Below are positions 1 to 10,520 of a stretch of DNA of 20,772 nt, piece by piece. The notes below the pieces were generated by a model. It made no database searches and had not been told where the DNA came from. It was given only the letters and a program-made list of their open reading frames with translations. The position numbers were made by a program, and so were the translations under genes. Position 1 is the stretch's first letter. Every line of letters begins with the position of its first letter. The DNA is taken from assembly GCA_022839045.1 (NCBI GenBank), contig JALHDI010000046.1:831-21602 (forward strand), given 5' to 3'. Origin of the DNA: Sporomusaceae bacterium (lineage in GTDB: Bacteria > Bacillota_C > Negativicutes > Sporomusales_B > UBA7701).

Positions 1-219
1 GTCGGCGTAAAAAGCCAGGTCGTGATTCCCGCCCGAATTCGCAACAACGCCAAGGTTAATCCCGGCGATGTTCTGATTATGACCAGTGATCGGAACGGGC
101 GCATTTCACTGATGAAAAAACCGCAAGATTGGGCGAAGGCTGCCTGGGGCTGTTGCAAGGGGACGTGGGGAGATAAGCCCTCCGAATACTTGCAGAAAGA
201 ACGTGAATCATGGGATTAG
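1..219 (+). CDS. AbrB/MazE-type antitoxin, 5' end outside window
   Basis: This is a small DNA-binding antitoxin of the AbrB/SpoVT swapped-hairpin class. It would neutralise the PIN toxin encoded just downstream and autorepress the pair. The frame is already open at base 1 and reads VGVKSQVVIPARIRNNAKV, the family's usual N-terminal pattern (K-x-Q-V-x-I-P-x-x-I-R), followed by a PGD turn. The true start therefore lies left of the window, and the GTG at 22 is internal. The C-terminus (about residues 60-73) has the charged, Trp-containing tail (KERESWD) seen in antitoxins paired with PIN toxins. The stop overlaps the toxin start by 10 bases, which indicates translational coupling. It is on the opposite strand from all phage genes, so it may be host DNA or a prophage moron. 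Confidence 0.75.
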   Translation, partial: VGVKSQVVIPARIRNNAKVNPGDVLIMTSDRNGRISLMKKPQDWAKAAWGCCKGTWGDKPSEYLQKERESWD

Positions 220-586
220 CCGACTTCCTTAAACAGTACAAGCGCATCGCTCTGGACACGAATGTGTTCATCTCCGTATTCACCCAGGAATCGCTGGGTA
301 AAAATGTATTGCCAATTATCGATGCCACGGCCAACAAAGGAACCCATGAGATGATAACCTCTGTCCTGGCATTTTCCGAATGCGCTGTCGGGCCTTACAA
401 GGAAGGCAATTGGCCTATGCTGGATCAAGTAAAATTGATGTTCCAGATGCCGGGGCTGACAGTCTACGCGATGGACGAAACAGTAGCGGAAGAGGCTGCG
501 CGGCTTCGGGCAAGGTTTTATTGACCAATGACCACCGGCTCGCCAGCATGAAGGAAATACCCGTTGTCAAACTGGATGAATTGTAA
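210..586 (+). pseudogene. VapC-like PIN-domain toxin, disrupted by internal deletion
   Basis: PIN-domain toxins are Mg-dependent RNases. Here the first frame (210-524, 104 residues) carries the first conserved Asp in LDTNVF (D16) and a conserved Glu in FSECAVGPY (E57). It then stops right after RLRARFY. The typical C-terminal block (LLTNDHRLASMKEIPVVKLDEL-like) resumes in the -1 frame from about base 515 and ends at 586. Between the two blocks, family members normally have about 20 residues with a TPDAIHLATA-like motif that supplies the third acidic residue. That segment is absent, so this is a deletion with frame change and not a simple one-base error. The product is probably inactive as a nuclease. 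The two halves clearly belong to one gene. Coupling to the upstream antitoxin is intact. Confidence 0.75.
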
Positions 587-4323: not shown

Positions 4324-5670
4324 TTAGTACCCGACGGCCGACCAGACGATGTCGCCGGCGACAGGGTGCCCGGTCGCGTCGTTAATCCGGACATAGAAAC
4401 CGGCCTCGGTGATGCTGATAACATCGGGCGTGCCGATACTCCCGCCCCGGAGTTGGACCATGACCTCCGGCGCGGCGAAAAACCTGACCTTGAACGGCAC
4501 GAAAGTTGCTGCCGCCGGGATAGTCCGTGTGCCACCGTCCGTCCGATCGGGTACGTCAACCGTCAGCTTCCACTCGTTTACTCGCGGCCGCCCGGTCGTC
4601 AGCGGGCCGGACAGGACGATGGCGACGAGCGCCTTCTGGTATTCCAGCTCGCCGGGGATGAACGTGGAGAACGGCCCGTAGCCGGCGGGGGTGGAAACCA
4701 GAGCGGCGAACTGCTCCACGGTCAGGTCGCCCGACGCGAATGCCAGGTCGCTGATTACCGCGTTCGCGTGCCGCAGATACTCCTCGTCCATGGCCAAGGC
4801 TTCAAAGACGGCCTTAATCTGCGCTTTGGACAGCCCCTCGGCCAGGTGGCAGACTTCCGCGAAAAGCCGCTTAAATGTGCTTGTAGCCGTCACCGCCTCC
4901 CCGATCTGGAGGCCGACCGGCACCGTCTTGGTAGTCGCCACGGTGCGGGCCTCGGCGGTGCGCCATGCCCCGGAGAACGGCCTGGTCACGGCGTTTGCCG
5001 GAGTTTCGGCCGTCGTCCACCCCTCCACGAACGTGAGAAAGTCCTGCCATGTGTGGCTCATCGTCTCGCCGTTCGCCCAGGCTTCAAGGAACGCCATAAT
5101 CGTGGTCCAGACCGGCGGCGCGTCGGCGGTGCGCCAGGCTTCCTTGAGCAGCCTGTCTACCGTCCGTCCGTCCAGCTCGGCCGTATTCCAGCCCTCCTCG
5201 GGCGAGAGGCCGTACTGTTGTGCCAAACCGTCATCGGTGCGCCAGCCCTCCTGGGGCTTGAGCTGTGGTGCCCGCGATGACGCCTCGGTGAGCTGCCAGC
5301 TTTCCGCCTGGGGGAGTGTCGTGGTGTTCACCAGAACGTCGGCCGCGGTCAGCGTCTCGAGAACCCGGAGCATCGGTGCCCAGACGTCGACCCAGACATC
5401 GCTCACCCGCCAGGATTCCTCGATTACGGGGGCGGTGGCCTTGGCGACTAGCTCGGCCGTGTGCCAGCCTTCGTGGGGCGCTAGGGTATACTGCCGATTT
5501 TGCGCCTCGGCGACGGCCCAGCCCTCGCCTACATTCAATGTGTAGGTGAGAGGGTAGGCTGCCGCCCATGTCTTGATGCCGTCCACGCTGTCCCAAGGAA
5601 AATCGGCGCCCGCCCAGGTGTAGGGAGCACCGGCCACGGACGACACGTCGACCGTCGTCGGATAAGCCAC
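4324..5670 (-). CDS. Tail fibre with 18-residue repeats and H-lectin-like end
   Basis: This 448-residue protein probably contributes a fibre shaft and receptor-binding tip. Residues 1-35 carry TWAGADFPWDSVD, a Trp motif also found in the J-like protein. Residues about 49-280 contain thirteen copies of a unit built on E-[GSA]-W-x-[TV]-[AS]-[ED], spaced mostly by exactly 18 residues. Residues 280-360 form a helical spacer. The last 85 residues (DVPDRTDGGT, VRFFAAPEV, TEAGFYVRI, IVWSAVGY) resemble an H-type-lectin-like beta sandwich. The start is GTG at 5670, after AAGGGGGTAGG. It lies between the 148-residue fibre-associated gene and the collar-domain fibre. The repeat region matches no family that I recognise. 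Confidence 0.75.
   Translation of the reverse strand: MAYPTTVDVSSVAGAPYTWAGADFPWDSVDGIKTWAAAYPLTYTLNVGEGWAVAEAQNRQYTLAPHEGWHTAELVAKATAPVIEESWRVSDVWVDVWAPMLRVLETLTAADVLVNTTTLPQAESWQLTEASSRAPQLKPQEGWRTDDGLAQQYGLSPEEGWNTAELDGRTVDRLLKEAWRTADAPPVWTTIMAFLEAWANGETMSHTWQDFLTFVEGWTTAETPANAVTRPFSGAWRTAEARTVATTKTVPVGLQIGEAVTATSTFKRLFAEVCHLAEGLSKAQIKAVFEALAMDEEYLRHANAVISDLAFASGDLTVEQFAALVSTPAGYGPFSTFIPGELEYQKALVAIVLSGPLTTGRPRVNEWKLTVDVPDRTDGGTRTIPAAATFVPFKVRFFAAPEVMVQLRGGSIGTPDVISITEAGFYVRINDATGHPVAGDIVWSAVGY
4831..5526 (-). repeat. Thirteen tandem 54-bp coding units (18-residue repeat)
   Basis: This stretch encodes residues 49-280 of the fibre. The key aromatic position falls at W51, W69, W87, L107, W125, W143, W161, W179, W198, W218, W236, L254 and C274. 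Steps are 18, 18, 20, 18, 18, 18, 18, 19, 20, 18, 18 and 20. The protein repeat is strong while the DNA copies have diverged, so the array is old or selected at the protein level. Short near-identical DNA pieces remain, for example GGTGCGCCAG at several copies on the plus strand. Confidence 0.8.
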
Positions 5671-5696: not shown

Positions 5697-6143
5697 TTAG
5701 CTCAAAGTGAACTGGAACTGCGCCGTCAGGGTGTCGTTCGCGCCTTTGTTGATGACCGAGAAGGTGACGCGGTCGAGCATGACGCCGGAGCTGGCGGCGG
5801 TGTTGTTGAAAACGCCCGCCTCTGTGATGGGGCCGGTGCCCACGCCGGGGTTGAAGGTGGAGCTGAGGGTGAAGGTCTGCGTGCCATTCGTGTGCGCGTA
5901 GGTCGCCGCCTGCCGGCATAGCTCGGTTGTCAGGGCCGTCTGGGAGGCGACCGGAGTGTTGCTGCCGGTGCCGAGGGCGATGGCCTGCATGACCGCCGTC
6001 GGCGTGCCGGCGACTTGGGCGCAGATGAAATCGAAGCCACTGTTGACGATGATGTTGTCCTTCTTCCGGACCTCTACGGAGCCGTCTTCCTTCTGGAGCG
6101 TGAGCGTGAGCGTGCCCTTCAGATGCAGATCGTGGTTTTCCAT
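5697..6143 (-). CDS. Fibre-associated tail structural protein
   Basis: This 148-residue protein begins with a strand-rich segment (LKGTLTLTLQKEDGSVEVRK), then NIIVNSGFDFICAQVAG, AIALGTGSNTP, ALTTELCRQ, STFNPGVGTGPITEAGVFN and a final pair of strands (LDRVTFSVINKG, LTAQFQFTL). I know this pattern from many prophages, where such proteins sit between the tip protein and the fibres and are annotated as tail or tail-fibre proteins. No specific biochemical role is known to me. The frame is open further upstream to 6251. The ATG at 6143 is chosen because AAGGAGG lies nine bases before it and because the upstream part overlaps the J-like gene. Confidence 0.75.
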   Translation of the reverse strand: MENHDLHLKGTLTLTLQKEDGSVEVRKKDNIIVNSGFDFICAQVAGTPTAVMQAIALGTGSNTPVASQTALTTELCRQAATYAHTNGTQTFTLSSTFNPGVGTGPITEAGVFNNTAASSGVMLDRVTFSVINKGANDTLTAQFQFTLS

Positions 6144-6180
6144 GGGCGCCTTCCTCCTTGAAAGGTTTTCTTTTGAGGCA

Positions 6181-9100
6181 CTAGGAGAGCTTAGGGTATA
6201 GAAAAGCGGCCGAGAACCCCCCGATCGGCCCGAAGGCCATCTCGGCGGCACCGACCGCCCCGGTGCTGAAAGAGCTGACGAATAGCTTCCTGGTCGTGGC
6301 GTTCTGCGCTATCCCGAAGGAAAGCCAGTCCGTCTGTTTGAACTCGACGTAAACCGTGTTCCTGTTGCCGAGGTTATCCTGAAGGAAAAACCCCGGCTCG
6401 GGGTCGTAGCCGACCATCAGATAGCCGGAATCGCCCCGCAGCGTCAGGAAGACCACGCTGTCGACGGTCGGCTGGTTGACGGCCACGCTGAAAACTGTGT
6501 TGAAGGTTTCCGGGACGTCCACCGCCCAGGAGAGCCGCGTCAAATCCCCGACGAACGCCCCCTTCTTAAAGCGGCCGTAGTCGTAGGTAACGTTGACCGC
6601 CTCCAGGGCCGGGGTGCCTTTGTCACCGGCCGCCGAGCCGTCCAGCGGTATGGATTCGCTGTTGTCGGGCGGCAGACCGGTGTACAGGGAAATCTGGTTC
6701 TCCAGCGTTACACCGGTGATGTCGCCGTCCGCCTCCCACGGCGCCTGTGCCTCGACATCGGCCCAGGTGAAGTTCGCATCGCCCCAGGTGATATCGGTGT
6801 CGGCCACGCCGATCATTCCGGCCAGGACTGTGTTTCTCGCCGTGAAGGACTTACCGAGATCCACCTCGATAATGTGCTGACCGCGCACCGCACCGTCGGC
6901 GAGCTGCAAACCGCCCTGGCTGACGTAGGTGTTCATCGAAACGCCCGGCCAGCCGGTGGCGACCGGATCCACGGTGATGACCGCGTTCCGGCCGCCGGCG
7001 TCAACGATAACTATGCTGGCATTCTGGGCGTTCGCGCTGTAGTTGCCGTAGCTGTCGATGGCCTTGATATAAAAGTCGTGGTCGCCCGGCGTCGGGAACA
7101 GGCAGCTGAATTGTGTGCCGGTCGCCCGGCCGACGCGCTGGCCTTTCGCCCAGCTGCCGCGGCGAATCTCGTAGACGGCGGCACCCGGCACCGGCTGCCA
7201 CAGGAACGACAGGTTGTCACCCTGCCGCACCACATCGAACCCGGTAACGTCGGCCGGCAGGGCGAACGAAGCCAGGATGGTGGTCGGCGCCGTCGAGACG
7301 TTGCCGCTGGTGTCCACGGCCTCGACGTGGAAGGCGTAGGTGCCGGCCTCGCCGATCGGGACGAACAGGCTGGTGGTCATGATTTGCTGCGCGATGACGG
7401 CGCTGCCGCCCATGGACGCGCCCTTATCGCCCTGGTAGACGTTGTAGCCGGCGATGTCAGGCTCGCTGTTCGCGTTCCAGGACAGGAAGAACCCGCCCAA
7501 GACCTCCCGGTAGGTCAGTCCCTGCACCGGGACCGGGGGCTTGCTTTTGCCGGTCACGTAGACTGGGGGCGAAACGACGCCGGTGGAAGCGACACCCGCG
7601 CTGTTGACGGTGGCGACTTTAACGAGGTAAGTGGCCTGCACCCTTATGCCCGTTATCGTCGCGGAGGCGGAGCGGGTGCCTCCGGCCCACAGCAGCCAGG
7701 TTTCCCCGTTGTCGCTGCTGTACCAGACATTGTACCCCGCCACGAAAGCGGTGTGCGGCACGGCCCAGGAGACGTTGAGGATGGAGAGAATCGTGCCGTC
7801 CTTTTGCCGGTAGGTTTCCTGCGCGACGTTCAGCCCCGTGACCTCGACTGGCGAACTGTCGAACAGGCTGTAGTTGACGACCGGCGCGGAGATATTCTCC
7901 TCGTAGATCGCCGGGACGTACTCGACGCCGGTGATTTTCGCTTTCTGGTCGCCGCTCTTGGAGATGGCCGTAATTTTGAACGGCTTTGTCTCTTTGCCGA
8001 CCGGTCCGAGCGCGTAAACATCGTACTGTTCCGGGACCACCTCAAGCAGTGGGACGGCAAGCATATCCAAAGTCAGCTCCAGGCCATAGGAAAGGACCGG
8101 CACCGTGATAATCTCGTCGGTGGCCAGCCGGAACTTAATCGCGTAGTTCACGCCGGCCGCCAGCGTGACTTCCTTGTCCAGCGTGATCGAGGTCGGCGTC
8201 GCCGCCACGATGCGGCCGCCGGCGAGGCCCCACCGCGGAATGTCGTGCTGTACGTCCACGACATCACCGAGCGTGCAGGCGATGGCGTCAATGTCGGCCT
8301 CCCAACTCTCCGTCCGGACGAGGTGCTGATTGCAGCGCGACAGGTAGGCGGCCTCGGCGTAGGCGTGCTTGTAATCGGTGATGCCGTAGTAGGTGGCCTG
8401 CACCGGATTGGCAACGACCGCCGAGGATTCGTAGTCAGGGCCGTAGTAAACAGCCTGGTCGGTCGAATACTCCCTGGCCTTGTTATAAAAGGTGACCTCG
8501 ATGCAGGTGGCCCGGTCCCTGGTGCTTTGAAACTCGCCCTTGAAGGACTTGGCGGCAATGTTGCCGACCGTGAACAGCTGCACCGGCTCGCCGGGCATGT
8601 CGCAGATACAGCTGTACTGCGTGCCCTTGGGGATGACCGTGCCGCGGCCGGTGATGGCGAACCGGGCCAGGGCGTCCCAGAAGCTGATGCCCTCGGACAG
8701 GTAAATGTTCAGATTGAAGCGATAGTCGCCGTCCCGCCAGCCGTCTGCATAGGCGGCCGCGGCCAAGAAGGCGGCGTAGTCAATCCGGGCGGGCGGGTTG
8801 CCGTCGACGACGTACTCGCCCTGGCCGGTGTTGACGTTCGTCAGCAGTTTGCATTGGTGGATAAGGTCGTAGCAGGCCCAATAGGGGTTTGACGCCCGCT
8901 GCTGTTGGTATTCCTGCAAGTAGGGATTCCAGACGAAAACCTTCGAGCGCGTCTGCTTCCAGGTCACGCTCGGGTCGGAATTACTCAGCTGGCTGGTGGC
9001 CAGGGCCTTGATGCCGACCAGGACCCGGTTCGGATAGGCGAAATCCTGGTAGATGATCTCCGAGAGCGTCGTCCAGAAGACGCGGGTCGTGTCGCGGGTG

Positions 9101-10143
9101 GATGTGCCGGATTTGACGGCGCAACGGACGCGGACGACGTACTGGCCGGGTTCCAGGCTGTCGAGCCGGAAGGACGCCCACATGGTGGTGTTCTGCGAAC
9201 CGCGGACCACGCCGCCGTCCTTCAGCGACCAGGTGTGCCAGCCACCCTCGTCCGCCCGTCGGTACTCCGCCGTCACCGTGACCGACGCGCTGCCGAGGCT
9301 GCCGTCGTCGTTGACATGGGCGAGGCCGCCGGGGAATTCCAGCGTAAGCTGGAGGCCCTGGATGGCGGTTCCCACGGTGGTCTGCACGGACCAGTCGCCG
9401 GCGGTGTCCAGCTCGTAGCCGAGCCGGTAGTCGGTGACGGTGTCGTTAAAGTTCGGAATCGGTTCCTGGTCATTGGTGCCGAGCCGGATGTCGCAGGTAA
9501 CGTCTTTGTAGTTGCCGACGGGGTTGCCGTCGATCAGGATGTCCTCCACGGAATCGACCGGCCCCTCGCCGCCGGAATACAGGAGGTTGAGGTACTGGTT
9601 GCTGCCGTCGGAGGTGACGAACCGCGCCAGAAGGACGGGCGCGATGCGGACGGTGCCGTAGGTCTTCGCCACCGGCGTGCCCGGTTCGGCCGTCGGCTGC
9701 GGGCCGTTCCAGCCGTAGGTGGTAGATTGGTCCTGCAATGCAACCTGCTGCTTTGGCGGCGGCAGGATGGCGTTGGCAACACGGCCGCCGACGTAAGAGC
9801 CGACCGCACCCCAGGCGGCCTTCATAAACGAACTCGCCCCGCCGAGCGGAGCGAGCAGAGACGAACCCAGAGCCATCATGGCGACGTTGAAAATGGTGCG
9901 GAAAAAGTTGGACGCGCCTTTACCCAAGACCGGGTGCAGCACCAGGCTGTCGTCGTCGCCGGGGACCAGGGCGCCCCATTCCTCGCGGAGCAGCTGGTGG
10001 CCGTTGATGCTGACGGCGAAATCGGTGTCGGGCCAGAGCCGGAGGATTGGCGCAATATGCCCGGCGACGGTCGGCCCGGGGGCCAGGTGCTGTACCTCCC
10101 GCTGGTCCGGGAATACCGGATTGCGGATGAATATCAGCTTCAC
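6181..10143 (-). CDS. Tail tip / host specificity protein J-like, with I-like N-terminus
   Basis: This is the 1320-residue central hub of the tail tip, comparable to lambda gpJ. Residues 1-76 look like a ubiquitin/ThiS-like beta-grasp unit (DFAVSINGHQLLREEW, PGDDDSLVLHPVLGKG), as in lambda tail protein I. Residues 77-130 are hydrophobic and Gly/Ala-rich. Residues 130-760 are the J core (YSGGEGPVDSVEDILIDG, later Trp/Tyr-rich strands). Three fibronectin type III domains follow at about 766-865, 868-960 and 963-1048. Residues 1119-1131 carry the TW..A.F.W..V motif. The last 130 residues resemble a concanavalin/LamG-type sandwich. The start is GTG at 10143, whose GTGA overlaps the stop of the NlpC/P60 gene. 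The open frame upstream of it is only a shadow of that gene. Confidence 0.92.
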   Translation of the reverse strand: MKLIFIRNPVFPDQREVQHLAPGPTVAGHIAPILRLWPDTDFAVSINGHQLLREEWGALVPGDDDSLVLHPVLGKGASNFFRTIFNVAMMALGSSLLAPLGGASSFMKAAWGAVGSYVGGRVANAILPPPKQQVALQDQSTTYGWNGPQPTAEPGTPVAKTYGTVRIAPVLLARFVTSDGSNQYLNLLYSGGEGPVDSVEDILIDGNPVGNYKDVTCDIRLGTNDQEPIPNFNDTVTDYRLGYELDTAGDWSVQTTVGTAIQGLQLTLEFPGGLAHVNDDGSLGSASVTVTAEYRRADEGGWHTWSLKDGGVVRGSQNTTMWASFRLDSLEPGQYVVRVRCAVKSGTSTRDTTRVFWTTLSEIIYQDFAYPNRVLVGIKALATSQLSNSDPSVTWKQTRSKVFVWNPYLQEYQQQRASNPYWACYDLIHQCKLLTNVNTGQGEYVVDGNPPARIDYAAFLAAAAYADGWRDGDYRFNLNIYLSEGISFWDALARFAITGRGTVIPKGTQYSCICDMPGEPVQLFTVGNIAAKSFKGEFQSTRDRATCIEVTFYNKAREYSTDQAVYYGPDYESSAVVANPVQATYYGITDYKHAYAEAAYLSRCNQHLVRTESWEADIDAIACTLGDVVDVQHDIPRWGLAGGRIVAATPTSITLDKEVTLAAGVNYAIKFRLATDEIITVPVLSYGLELTLDMLAVPLLEVVPEQYDVYALGPVGKETKPFKITAISKSGDQKAKITGVEYVPAIYEENISAPVVNYSLFDSSPVEVTGLNVAQETYRQKDGTILSILNVSWAVPHTAFVAGYNVWYSSDNGETWLLWAGGTRSASATITGIRVQATYLVKVATVNSAGVASTGVVSPPVYVTGKSKPPVPVQGLTYREVLGGFFLSWNANSEPDIAGYNVYQGDKGASMGGSAVIAQQIMTTSLFVPIGEAGTYAFHVEAVDTSGNVSTAPTTILASFALPADVTGFDVVRQGDNLSFLWQPVPGAAVYEIRRGSWAKGQRVGRATGTQFSCLFPTPGDHDFYIKAIDSYGNYSANAQNASIVIVDAGGRNAVITVDPVATGWPGVSMNTYVSQGGLQLADGAVRGQHIIEVDLGKSFTARNTVLAGMIGVADTDITWGDANFTWADVEAQAPWEADGDITGVTLENQISLYTGLPPDNSESIPLDGSAAGDKGTPALEAVNVTYDYGRFKKGAFVGDLTRLSWAVDVPETFNTVFSVAVNQPTVDSVVFLTLRGDSGYLMVGYDPEPGFFLQDNLGNRNTVYVEFKQTDWLSFGIAQNATTRKLFVSSFSTGAVGAAEMAFGPIGGFSAAFLYPKLS

Positions 10144-10520
10144 GTCAGCCAACCGGGCGCGTAATAGCCCTCGATGCGCCGCTTCCAGAATATGTGGTCG
10201 ACTGCGGTGATCACCACGCTCGCCGAGCTGTGCGCGTGGATGAACTTGCCGCCGCCCAGGTAGACACCGATGTGGTCGGCGATGCCGGCCGTGGTGAAAA
10301 CGATGAGCGCGGGCGCCGGCACCTCTCCGACGCACCGCGTCCACTTGTCGCGATTATCCGTGACGCCGTTAGTAACCGTCGCGCACGTCAGCCGGTAGTC
10401 GGGAATCACGATGCCGTACCGGCGGAACACCTCCACGGCCAGGCCCCAGCAATCGTAGCCGTCCGGGCCTCTGCCGCCCTCCACAAAAGGCTTGCCGACA
10501 AGGTCAAATATTCGACGCAT
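10140..10520 (-). CDS. NlpC/P60 tail tip peptidase, lambda K-like
   Basis: This is a cysteine peptidase expected to cut peptide bonds in the host wall during DNA entry, or to act in tail tip assembly. The 126 residues contain the family core: catalytic Cys24 in GYDCWGL, His83 in DHIGVYLGG and a second His in KFIHAHS (H95 or H97). There is no JAB/MPN metallopeptidase domain, which lambda gpK has N-terminal to its NlpC part, so this is the short form. The chosen ATG at 10520 follows GGGAGGG by five bases and is inside the end of the L-like gene (17-base overlap). The frame open to 10637 is a shadow. Gene order tape measure, M, L, K, J supports the role. Confidence 0.93.
   Translation of the reverse strand: MRRIFDLVGKPFVEGGRGPDGYDCWGLAVEVFRRYGIVIPDYRLTCATVTNGVTDNRDKWTRCVGEVPAPALIVFTTAGIADHIGVYLGGGKFIHAHSSASVVITAVDHIFWKRRIEGYYAPGWLT

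Follow-up and report, generated by a model that had tools for sequence, protein, structure and literature searches.

A probable tail fibre encoded beside gpJ carries an 18-residue repeat arranged in threes

We analysed a stretch of 20,772 nucleotides of DNA, called here as a whole the window, and found that its gene at 4324-5670 encodes a 448-residue protein in which an 18-residue unit recurs 14 times; in this protein and its relatives the units are, with exceptions, grouped in threes. On balance we think it probable that the protein is a gpJ-associated, likely homotrimeric tail fibre with a triplet-quantised, likely beta-structured shaft and a glycan-binding head whose lectin-like fold is predicted. 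Two things weigh slightly against this reading: the residue couplings in the shaft are mixed, and in some relatives phrog_12240 has a match over the repeats. The parts of the fibre gene are as follows.

4324..5670, minus strand: repeat tail fibre gene, 448 residues, GTG start (translation)
5527..5670, minus strand: N-terminal domain, residues 1-48, modelled as beta (pLDDT 76-79 over residues 11-40)
5566..5616, minus strand: tri-Trp motif W-x2-A-x-F-x-W-x8-W, residues 19-35
4750..5526, minus strand: repeat shaft, residues 49-307, 14 units grouped 3, 6, 3 and a final 2
5359..5418, minus strand: first long (20-residue) unit, residues 85-104
5026..5085, minus strand: second long (20-residue) unit, residues 196-215
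4858..4917, minus strand: third long (20-residue) unit, residues 252-271
4549..4749, minus strand: conserved linker, residues 308-374 (from the alignment; dN/dS 0.26)
4327..4548, minus strand: C-terminal H-type-lectin-like head, residues 375-448 (predicted fold)

Acidic residues are the constants of the 18-residue unit

An earlier note on this DNA had described a fibre of 448 residues, a length with which the translation agrees, and thirteen copies of an 18-residue unit marked by tryptophan. Using a position-specific model trained over the fibre family, we located units starting at residues 49, 67, 85, 105, 123, 141, 159, 177, 196, 216, 234, 252, 272 and 290, with spacings of 18, 18, 20, 18, 18, 18, 18, 19, 20, 18, 18, 20 and 18. 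The last units are weak, that at 234 beginning with Gly and that at 252 with Val. The repeat is real and beyond chance, but the array is longer than had been described, with 14 units over residues 49-307. Residues 40-283 hold 42 identities at lag 18, a number equalled in none of 20,000 shuffles, and only 2 of 20,000 shuffles had as many Trp-Trp pairs, at any lag from 10 to 29, as the six seen at lag 18. Ten of the thirteen places named as aromatic are indeed Trp, but Leu stands at 107 and 254 and Cys at 274. Likewise the spacing between those places, said to be mostly exactly 18, is 18 in eight of 12 cases and otherwise 19 (once) or 20 (three times).

The consensus of the unit is E-[AGST]-[LFW]-x-h-[AS]-[ED]-x-h-x-[RK]-x-h-x-K-x-h-x, where h is hydrophobic. 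Of 1,553 copies from 119 different proteins, 91% have Glu at position 1 and 97% have Glu or Asp at position 7. Trp occupies position 3 in 74% of the 344 units of 26 W-type proteins, as against 3% of the 409 units of 29 other diverse proteins, and in branches other than the W-type this position is mostly Leu or Phe. Thus Trp, which had been taken as the signature of the repeat, is a trait of one lineage, and the constants of the unit are Glu at position 1 and Glu or Asp at position 7.

The claim that the unit is strongly conserved against diverged DNA held up when the window gene was compared with that of locus L085, to which it is 84.4% identical in nucleotides: codons for unit positions 1, 3 and 7 have a dN/dS of 0.077, as against 0.50 for the rest of the repeat codons. 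Tandem Repeats Finder detected no period-54 DNA array in the fibre gene, only two short runs of periods 11 and 12. Because no such array is left at the DNA level, the copies look old.

The 448-residue protein matched no Pfam family at E<=1 and nothing in NCBIfam at E<=0.1, its best match in PHROGs had an E value of 0.16, and the best match of the fibre family profile to PDB sequences had an E value of 0.096. No named repeat family could therefore be assigned over the repeats of the window protein from Pfam, PHROGs, NCBIfam or PDB sequences. For this protein the earlier statement that the repeats match nothing known is correct; for the family it is too broad, since phrog_12240 (function unknown), which does not match the window protein, weakly matched the repeats in 4 of 8 relatives tried (best E 3.9e-6, residues 136-303 of P0029). 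A search of open-licence papers for 18-residue or 18-amino-acid repeats in tail fibres returned no paper that looks related.

Units are mostly grouped in threes

We counted units in 43 proteins including that of the window, namely 40 at less than 70% identity and three long ones. Unit phase (a, b or c) was counted backwards from the C-terminal end. Among the interior stretches between successive 20-residue units, 80 of 83 hold 3, 6, 9, 12 or 15 units (40, 30, 8, 1 and 1 times, respectively), and the three that break the rule hold 1, 1 and 4 (L060, P0027 and P0134). Exactly two units follow the last long unit in all 43 proteins, and of 126 long units 123 occupy phase c. First groups were kept out of the 83 because N-terminal units are easily missed; they are multiples of three in 35 of the 43 proteins, and the eight that are not lie mostly where N-terminal units may have been missed, with P0026 also among them.

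The same period is visible in the units themselves. With long units omitted, mean BLOSUM62 similarity between units is 13.7, 13.4, 17.2 and 12.4 at lags 1, 2, 3 and 4. None of 300 within-protein shuffles gave so large an excess at multiples of three; one protein, L081, lacks the excess at lag 3. The phases also differ in composition: 34% of phase a units have Pro at position 16, and in 58% of phase b units position 7 is Asp rather than Glu.

Since many of the proteins are related, changes counted on a tree give a fairer number. The tree was made from the head domain with the repeat array left out. On it 12 changes are required to explain the uncorrected number of units that come after the first long unit, and three to explain the class of that number modulo 3 (for 9 of 12 at 1/3 the binomial tail is 0.004). 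For raw total unit counts, 18 changes are needed and the class modulo 3 changes in nine. In seven proteins (P0027, P0028, P0030, L108, L110, P0129 and P0145) N-terminal units had been missed and the count was adjusted by eye; the statistic quoted does without these adjustments. The repeat, the length steps described below and the triplet rule with its exceptions are direct observations, as are the gene order and the motif shared with gpJ. Three units (54 residues, or 56 with a long third unit) are the real building block of the shaft.

Fibre length changes mostly by whole triplets

It had been suggested that fibre length could vary with copy number, and it does: relatives hold between 6 and 33 units found. 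The change is mostly in threes, a detail that is new here. Common lengths among relatives are 396, 450, 612 and 666 residues, which lie 54 or 162 apart, and a further length, 340 (as in the short relative at L114), is 56 below 396. W-type proteins have 445-448 or 393 residues. Two examples are P0024 (550 residues, 20 units) and P0025 (442 residues, 14 units). The metagenomic relatives P0129 and P0134 have 30 and 33 units found in 776 and 788 residues, several of them weakly scoring.

One pair of close relatives, the single case of its kind, records a three-unit gap directly. Compared with L005, the gene in L006 has an in-frame, in-register gap of exactly 162 nt, or three units, which spans from the E-G-W codons of unit 5 to the matching place in unit 8 and leaves one hybrid unit.

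Such an event would also be expected if the rule of three were history and not structure, an ancestral abc triplet having diverged and later unequal recombination having paired like with like. Units of the same phase are the most alike, the one gap of exactly three units has a hybrid unit at its junction, and some arrays are off the rule, all of which fit. However, the window gene is without DNA-level repeats, so that recombination driven by similarity would be weak there, and in 123 of 126 cases the long unit keeps its place in phase c, among lineages that share about 30% identity. We regard history as a less likely explanation of the rule.

The shaft is more likely beta than helical

A repeating beta shaft had been proposed from the regularity and the conservation of the unit. 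Residue alternation and the i+2 couplings in pooled units speak for it, whereas the unpooled analyses and the AlphaFold models, which contain no confident shaft, do not; we hold beta structure to be more likely than helix. Even positions of the unit are small (Ala, Gly, Ser or Thr) in 57% of cases versus 14% at odd positions. Odd positions are more conserved; of the 48,620 possible choices of nine positions, 890 are as conserved. Units with insertions comprise 126 of 20 residues and 30 of 19; the commoner insertion is thus of two residues, which keeps the even/odd alternation, and the 30 units of 19 residues break it.

When units were pooled, couplings peaked at i+2 (0.75-0.91 in a, b and a+b), and over all pooled sets (a, b, a+b, long c and short c) they ranged from -0.03 to -0.38 at i+3, from 0.17 to 0.28 at i+4 and from -0.15 to -0.67 at i+7. 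Alignment blocks of 56 columns covering a, b and long c gave 0.83 at i+2, 0.25 at i+3, 0.59 at i+4 and 0.15 at i+7. A helical control run with the same script, 27 chemoreceptor signalling domains from 30 loci, peaked at separations of 3, 4, 7 and 11 (0.57 at i+3, 0.74 at i+4 and 0.56 at i+7), and in the beta head of the fibre proteins themselves i+2 leads. Unpooled columns gave 0.61 at i+3, 0.57 at i+4 and 0.18 at i+7 without an i+2 peak, another unpooled analysis had even separations raised and i+7 low, and subsamples of 30 sequences were flat (0.29, 0.24, 0.25 and 0.26 at separations 1-4). The couplings, i+7 above all, appear to lean against a helix, though not uniformly across analyses. Couplings 18 apart at position 3 were not used because lineages with Trp and lineages with Leu could produce them. 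A contact map drawn from the couplings was rejected; it was based on mutual information with about 45 effective sequences and looks dominated by lineage.

In the rival fold the shaft is alpha-helical, and each 18-residue unit, equal to five turns, would make up either an amphipathic helix or a segment of a trimeric helical stalk, coiled or supercoiled, comparable with the phi29 head fibre or with the helix-and-turn rods of R-pyocin fibres. Two AlphaFold models, built with 30 and 123 sequences, drew long helices and no strands over the repeats, and the helices cover residues 65-116, 187-221 and 256-308. Both models are poor there (pLDDT about 25-56, and only about 31-56 in the helices). The mean hydrophobic moment of the 18-residue unit suits a helix, at 0.237 at both 80 and 100 degrees and at most 0.072 at 160-180 degrees, and that of the long unit is highest (0.295) at 110 degrees. 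Charged positions 7-11 and 15-1' are spaced four apart, and in the R-pyocin fibre the rod and shaft are described as short helices and turns (PMC6116203). Against this, the pooled couplings are without the peaks of the control at 3, 4, 7 and 11, although the 56-column blocks and the unpooled columns are less clear. Even positions are small, and among 190 W-type units 42% contain Pro and 61% contain Gly. Furthermore, two extra residues would rotate the face of a helix by 160 degrees. We consider a helical shaft less likely.

Triple beta-spirals have repeats near 15-20 residues and alternating residues, and they occur in viral fibres. A spiral of the adenovirus or reovirus type shares these features with our shaft, but it is improbable here: we found no regular Gly or Pro turn position across phases, Pro being concentrated at position 16 of phase a, the hydrophobic face also carries conserved charges, and no PDB sequence matched under E 0.09. 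That fold is not known to include a triplet rule.

Fold searches speak for the head only, and the missing match for the shaft says nothing because both shaft models are poor. Most of the fibre model can be aligned with two uncharacterised BFVD proteins, at 21-23% identity.

A predicted lectin-like head, and a motif shared with gpJ

AlphaFold and a fold search place the C-terminal domain, modelled confidently, as an H-type-lectin-like fibre head (PF09458, gp53-like fold). PF09458 is listed at E<=1 for 12 of 30 family members (best E 9.4e-5), the window protein being without any Pfam family. The head and the position of the gene downstream of gpJ support the earlier identification of a tail fibre. 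The features upstream are as follows.

5697..6251, minus strand: small tail gene lying after gpJ and before the fibre gene (phrog_5417, function unknown, E 1.7e-25)
6181..10344, minus strand: gpJ, central tail fibre or tip attachment protein (phrog_31, E 1.6e-151; TipJ-related NF040662 over its cut-off)
6736..6786, minus strand: tri-Trp motif, second copy, close to where gpJ ends

In the N-terminal domain of the fibre W19, W26 and W35 are nearly invariant in an alignment of 123 rows, and the tri-Trp pattern that they form is found again near the end of gpJ. The pattern arose in 4 of 5000 shuffles of the window gpJ and in 1-7 of 5000 shuffles for each of seven upstream proteins. This suggests that the motif common to the two proteins is a docking part. 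The gene order gpJ, phrog_5417, fibre is found in the window, L106 and L110, and in L088 (1535-5977) the phrog_5417 family is fused to the end of gpJ with the fibre next.

In Rhizobium and Roseobacter phages (L003, 1944-5621, and L004, 2484-5381) the end of gpJ itself matches the head region of the fibre. A gpJ in BFVD also matches it. The head may move between gpJ and a separate fibre.

Distribution of the family and neighbouring genes

A protein search returned 29 homologues besides the window protein, and a profile search with a limit of E<=0.001 found 320, including the 120 listed. Loci on viral contigs were 80 of 139 and 80 of 134 confirmed loci, many of the second set lying on contigs of the first, and a further 28 loci came from genomes. 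We left out L055, L109 and L112, for which the script gave no gene, and L002-L004; the genes of L032 and L038, truncated where their contigs end, were dropped from the comparison sets. At 78% identity, L085 is the nearest locus. Carriers among the 28 genome loci include a Selenomonadales MAG, Negativicutes UBA1444, Propionispora and Anaerospora within the Negativicutes, and many Burkholderiales, such as Limnohabitans and Polynucleobacter. Other labels are an Alphaproteobacteria MAG (three times), Beijerinckiaceae, Pseudomonadales, Bacteroidetes and Akkermansia, and some of the outlying ones may be binning errors. Anaeroselena agilis also carries a relative. Since relatives occur in Negativicutes, the window is probably phage or prophage DNA from a Negativicutes host.

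When four family members were used in tblastn, only C-terminal parts matched, in 3, 8, 3 and 3 phage records. These matches are mainly to the head, and in two Rhizobium phage gpJ proteins they also cover a stretch of the last units. The plasmids searched held no relatives, and the fibre DNA had no match in phage DNA.

Two genes past the fibre in L001 (7766-9386), and likewise in L086 and L087, lies a gene for a 148-residue protein that ends in a Cys cluster (CSCSCCNG). Next comes a gene for a radical SAM protein (PF04055, E 1.4e-10), a possible modifier of a tail protein. Of 24 loci with at least 4 kb downstream, 3 have a radical-SAM-like frame. Elsewhere in the window, a glycosyl hydrolase family 25 endolysin (PF01183, E 1e-29) is encoded at 1467-2048 on the minus strand, and at the left edge (1-586, plus strand) a short frame and an overlapping pair of frames resemble, by eye, an AbrB-type antitoxin and a PIN-type toxin.

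Discussion

Our data are consistent with a fibre whose N-terminus would dock on gpJ, which would assemble as a homotrimer, and whose units would form a beta-structured shaft that presents a head, of predicted fold, able to bind a surface glycan. Gain or loss of whole triplets would carry the head outward or draw it in by fixed steps while keeping the register of the three inequivalent unit positions a, b and c, and selection may act on the reach of the fibre. We tentatively propose, as a less than even possibility, an undescribed fold in which three inequivalent beta units make one 54-residue turn, reach is set in whole turns, and almost all changes that break a turn are purged. The rule of three predicts that a fibre with three units removed still folds and that one with one or two removed fails.

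The shafts of tail fibres are hard to model, and the reach of a receptor-binding head can seldom be read from sequence. Here copy number, phase and long units are directly readable, and reach can be compared across hundreds of relatives in a fibre family held by freshwater and Negativicutes phages or prophages.

Several known systems resemble parts of this fibre. In the tail fibre gp53 of AP22 (PDB 4mtm) the match is limited to the head. The head-domain relative PJWF_00027 of Achromobacter phage JWF is 35.7% identical over residues 305-448 and its gene lies directly after one named central tail fiber J in the RefSeq copy, but unlike the window fibre it has 157 residues and is essentially head only. 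A radical SAM gene lies three genes past it in that phage.

The head fibre of phi29, described as a trimer with a repeating helix-turn-helix (PMC11476376), is the nearest helical rival to the window shaft. Phage R4C has three fibre trimers, which carry lectin-like feet and are attached to a hub-megatron complex, and the trimeric fibre protein binds the megatron protein (PMC10276861), which on our reading would correspond to gpJ. The fibres of RcGTA are described in similar terms (PMC7296036). In both, a knob follows a rod that consists of a short stretch of coiled coil or helix, and the portions of these papers available to us mention no 18-residue array.

R-pyocin fibres are homotrimers that end in a lectin-like domain, and their authors note that repeats permit adjustment of length (PMC6116203). 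The shaft of the R1 and R2 pyocin fibres (PDB 6cl5, 6cl6, 6ct8 and 6cxb) is an irregular series of helices and turns that was visible to its authors only in the structure, whereas the window fibre has an 18-residue unit that is readable in the sequence and grouped in threes. The window fibre likely works like the fibres of R-pyocins, R4C and RcGTA, but with a different, sequence-visible shaft.
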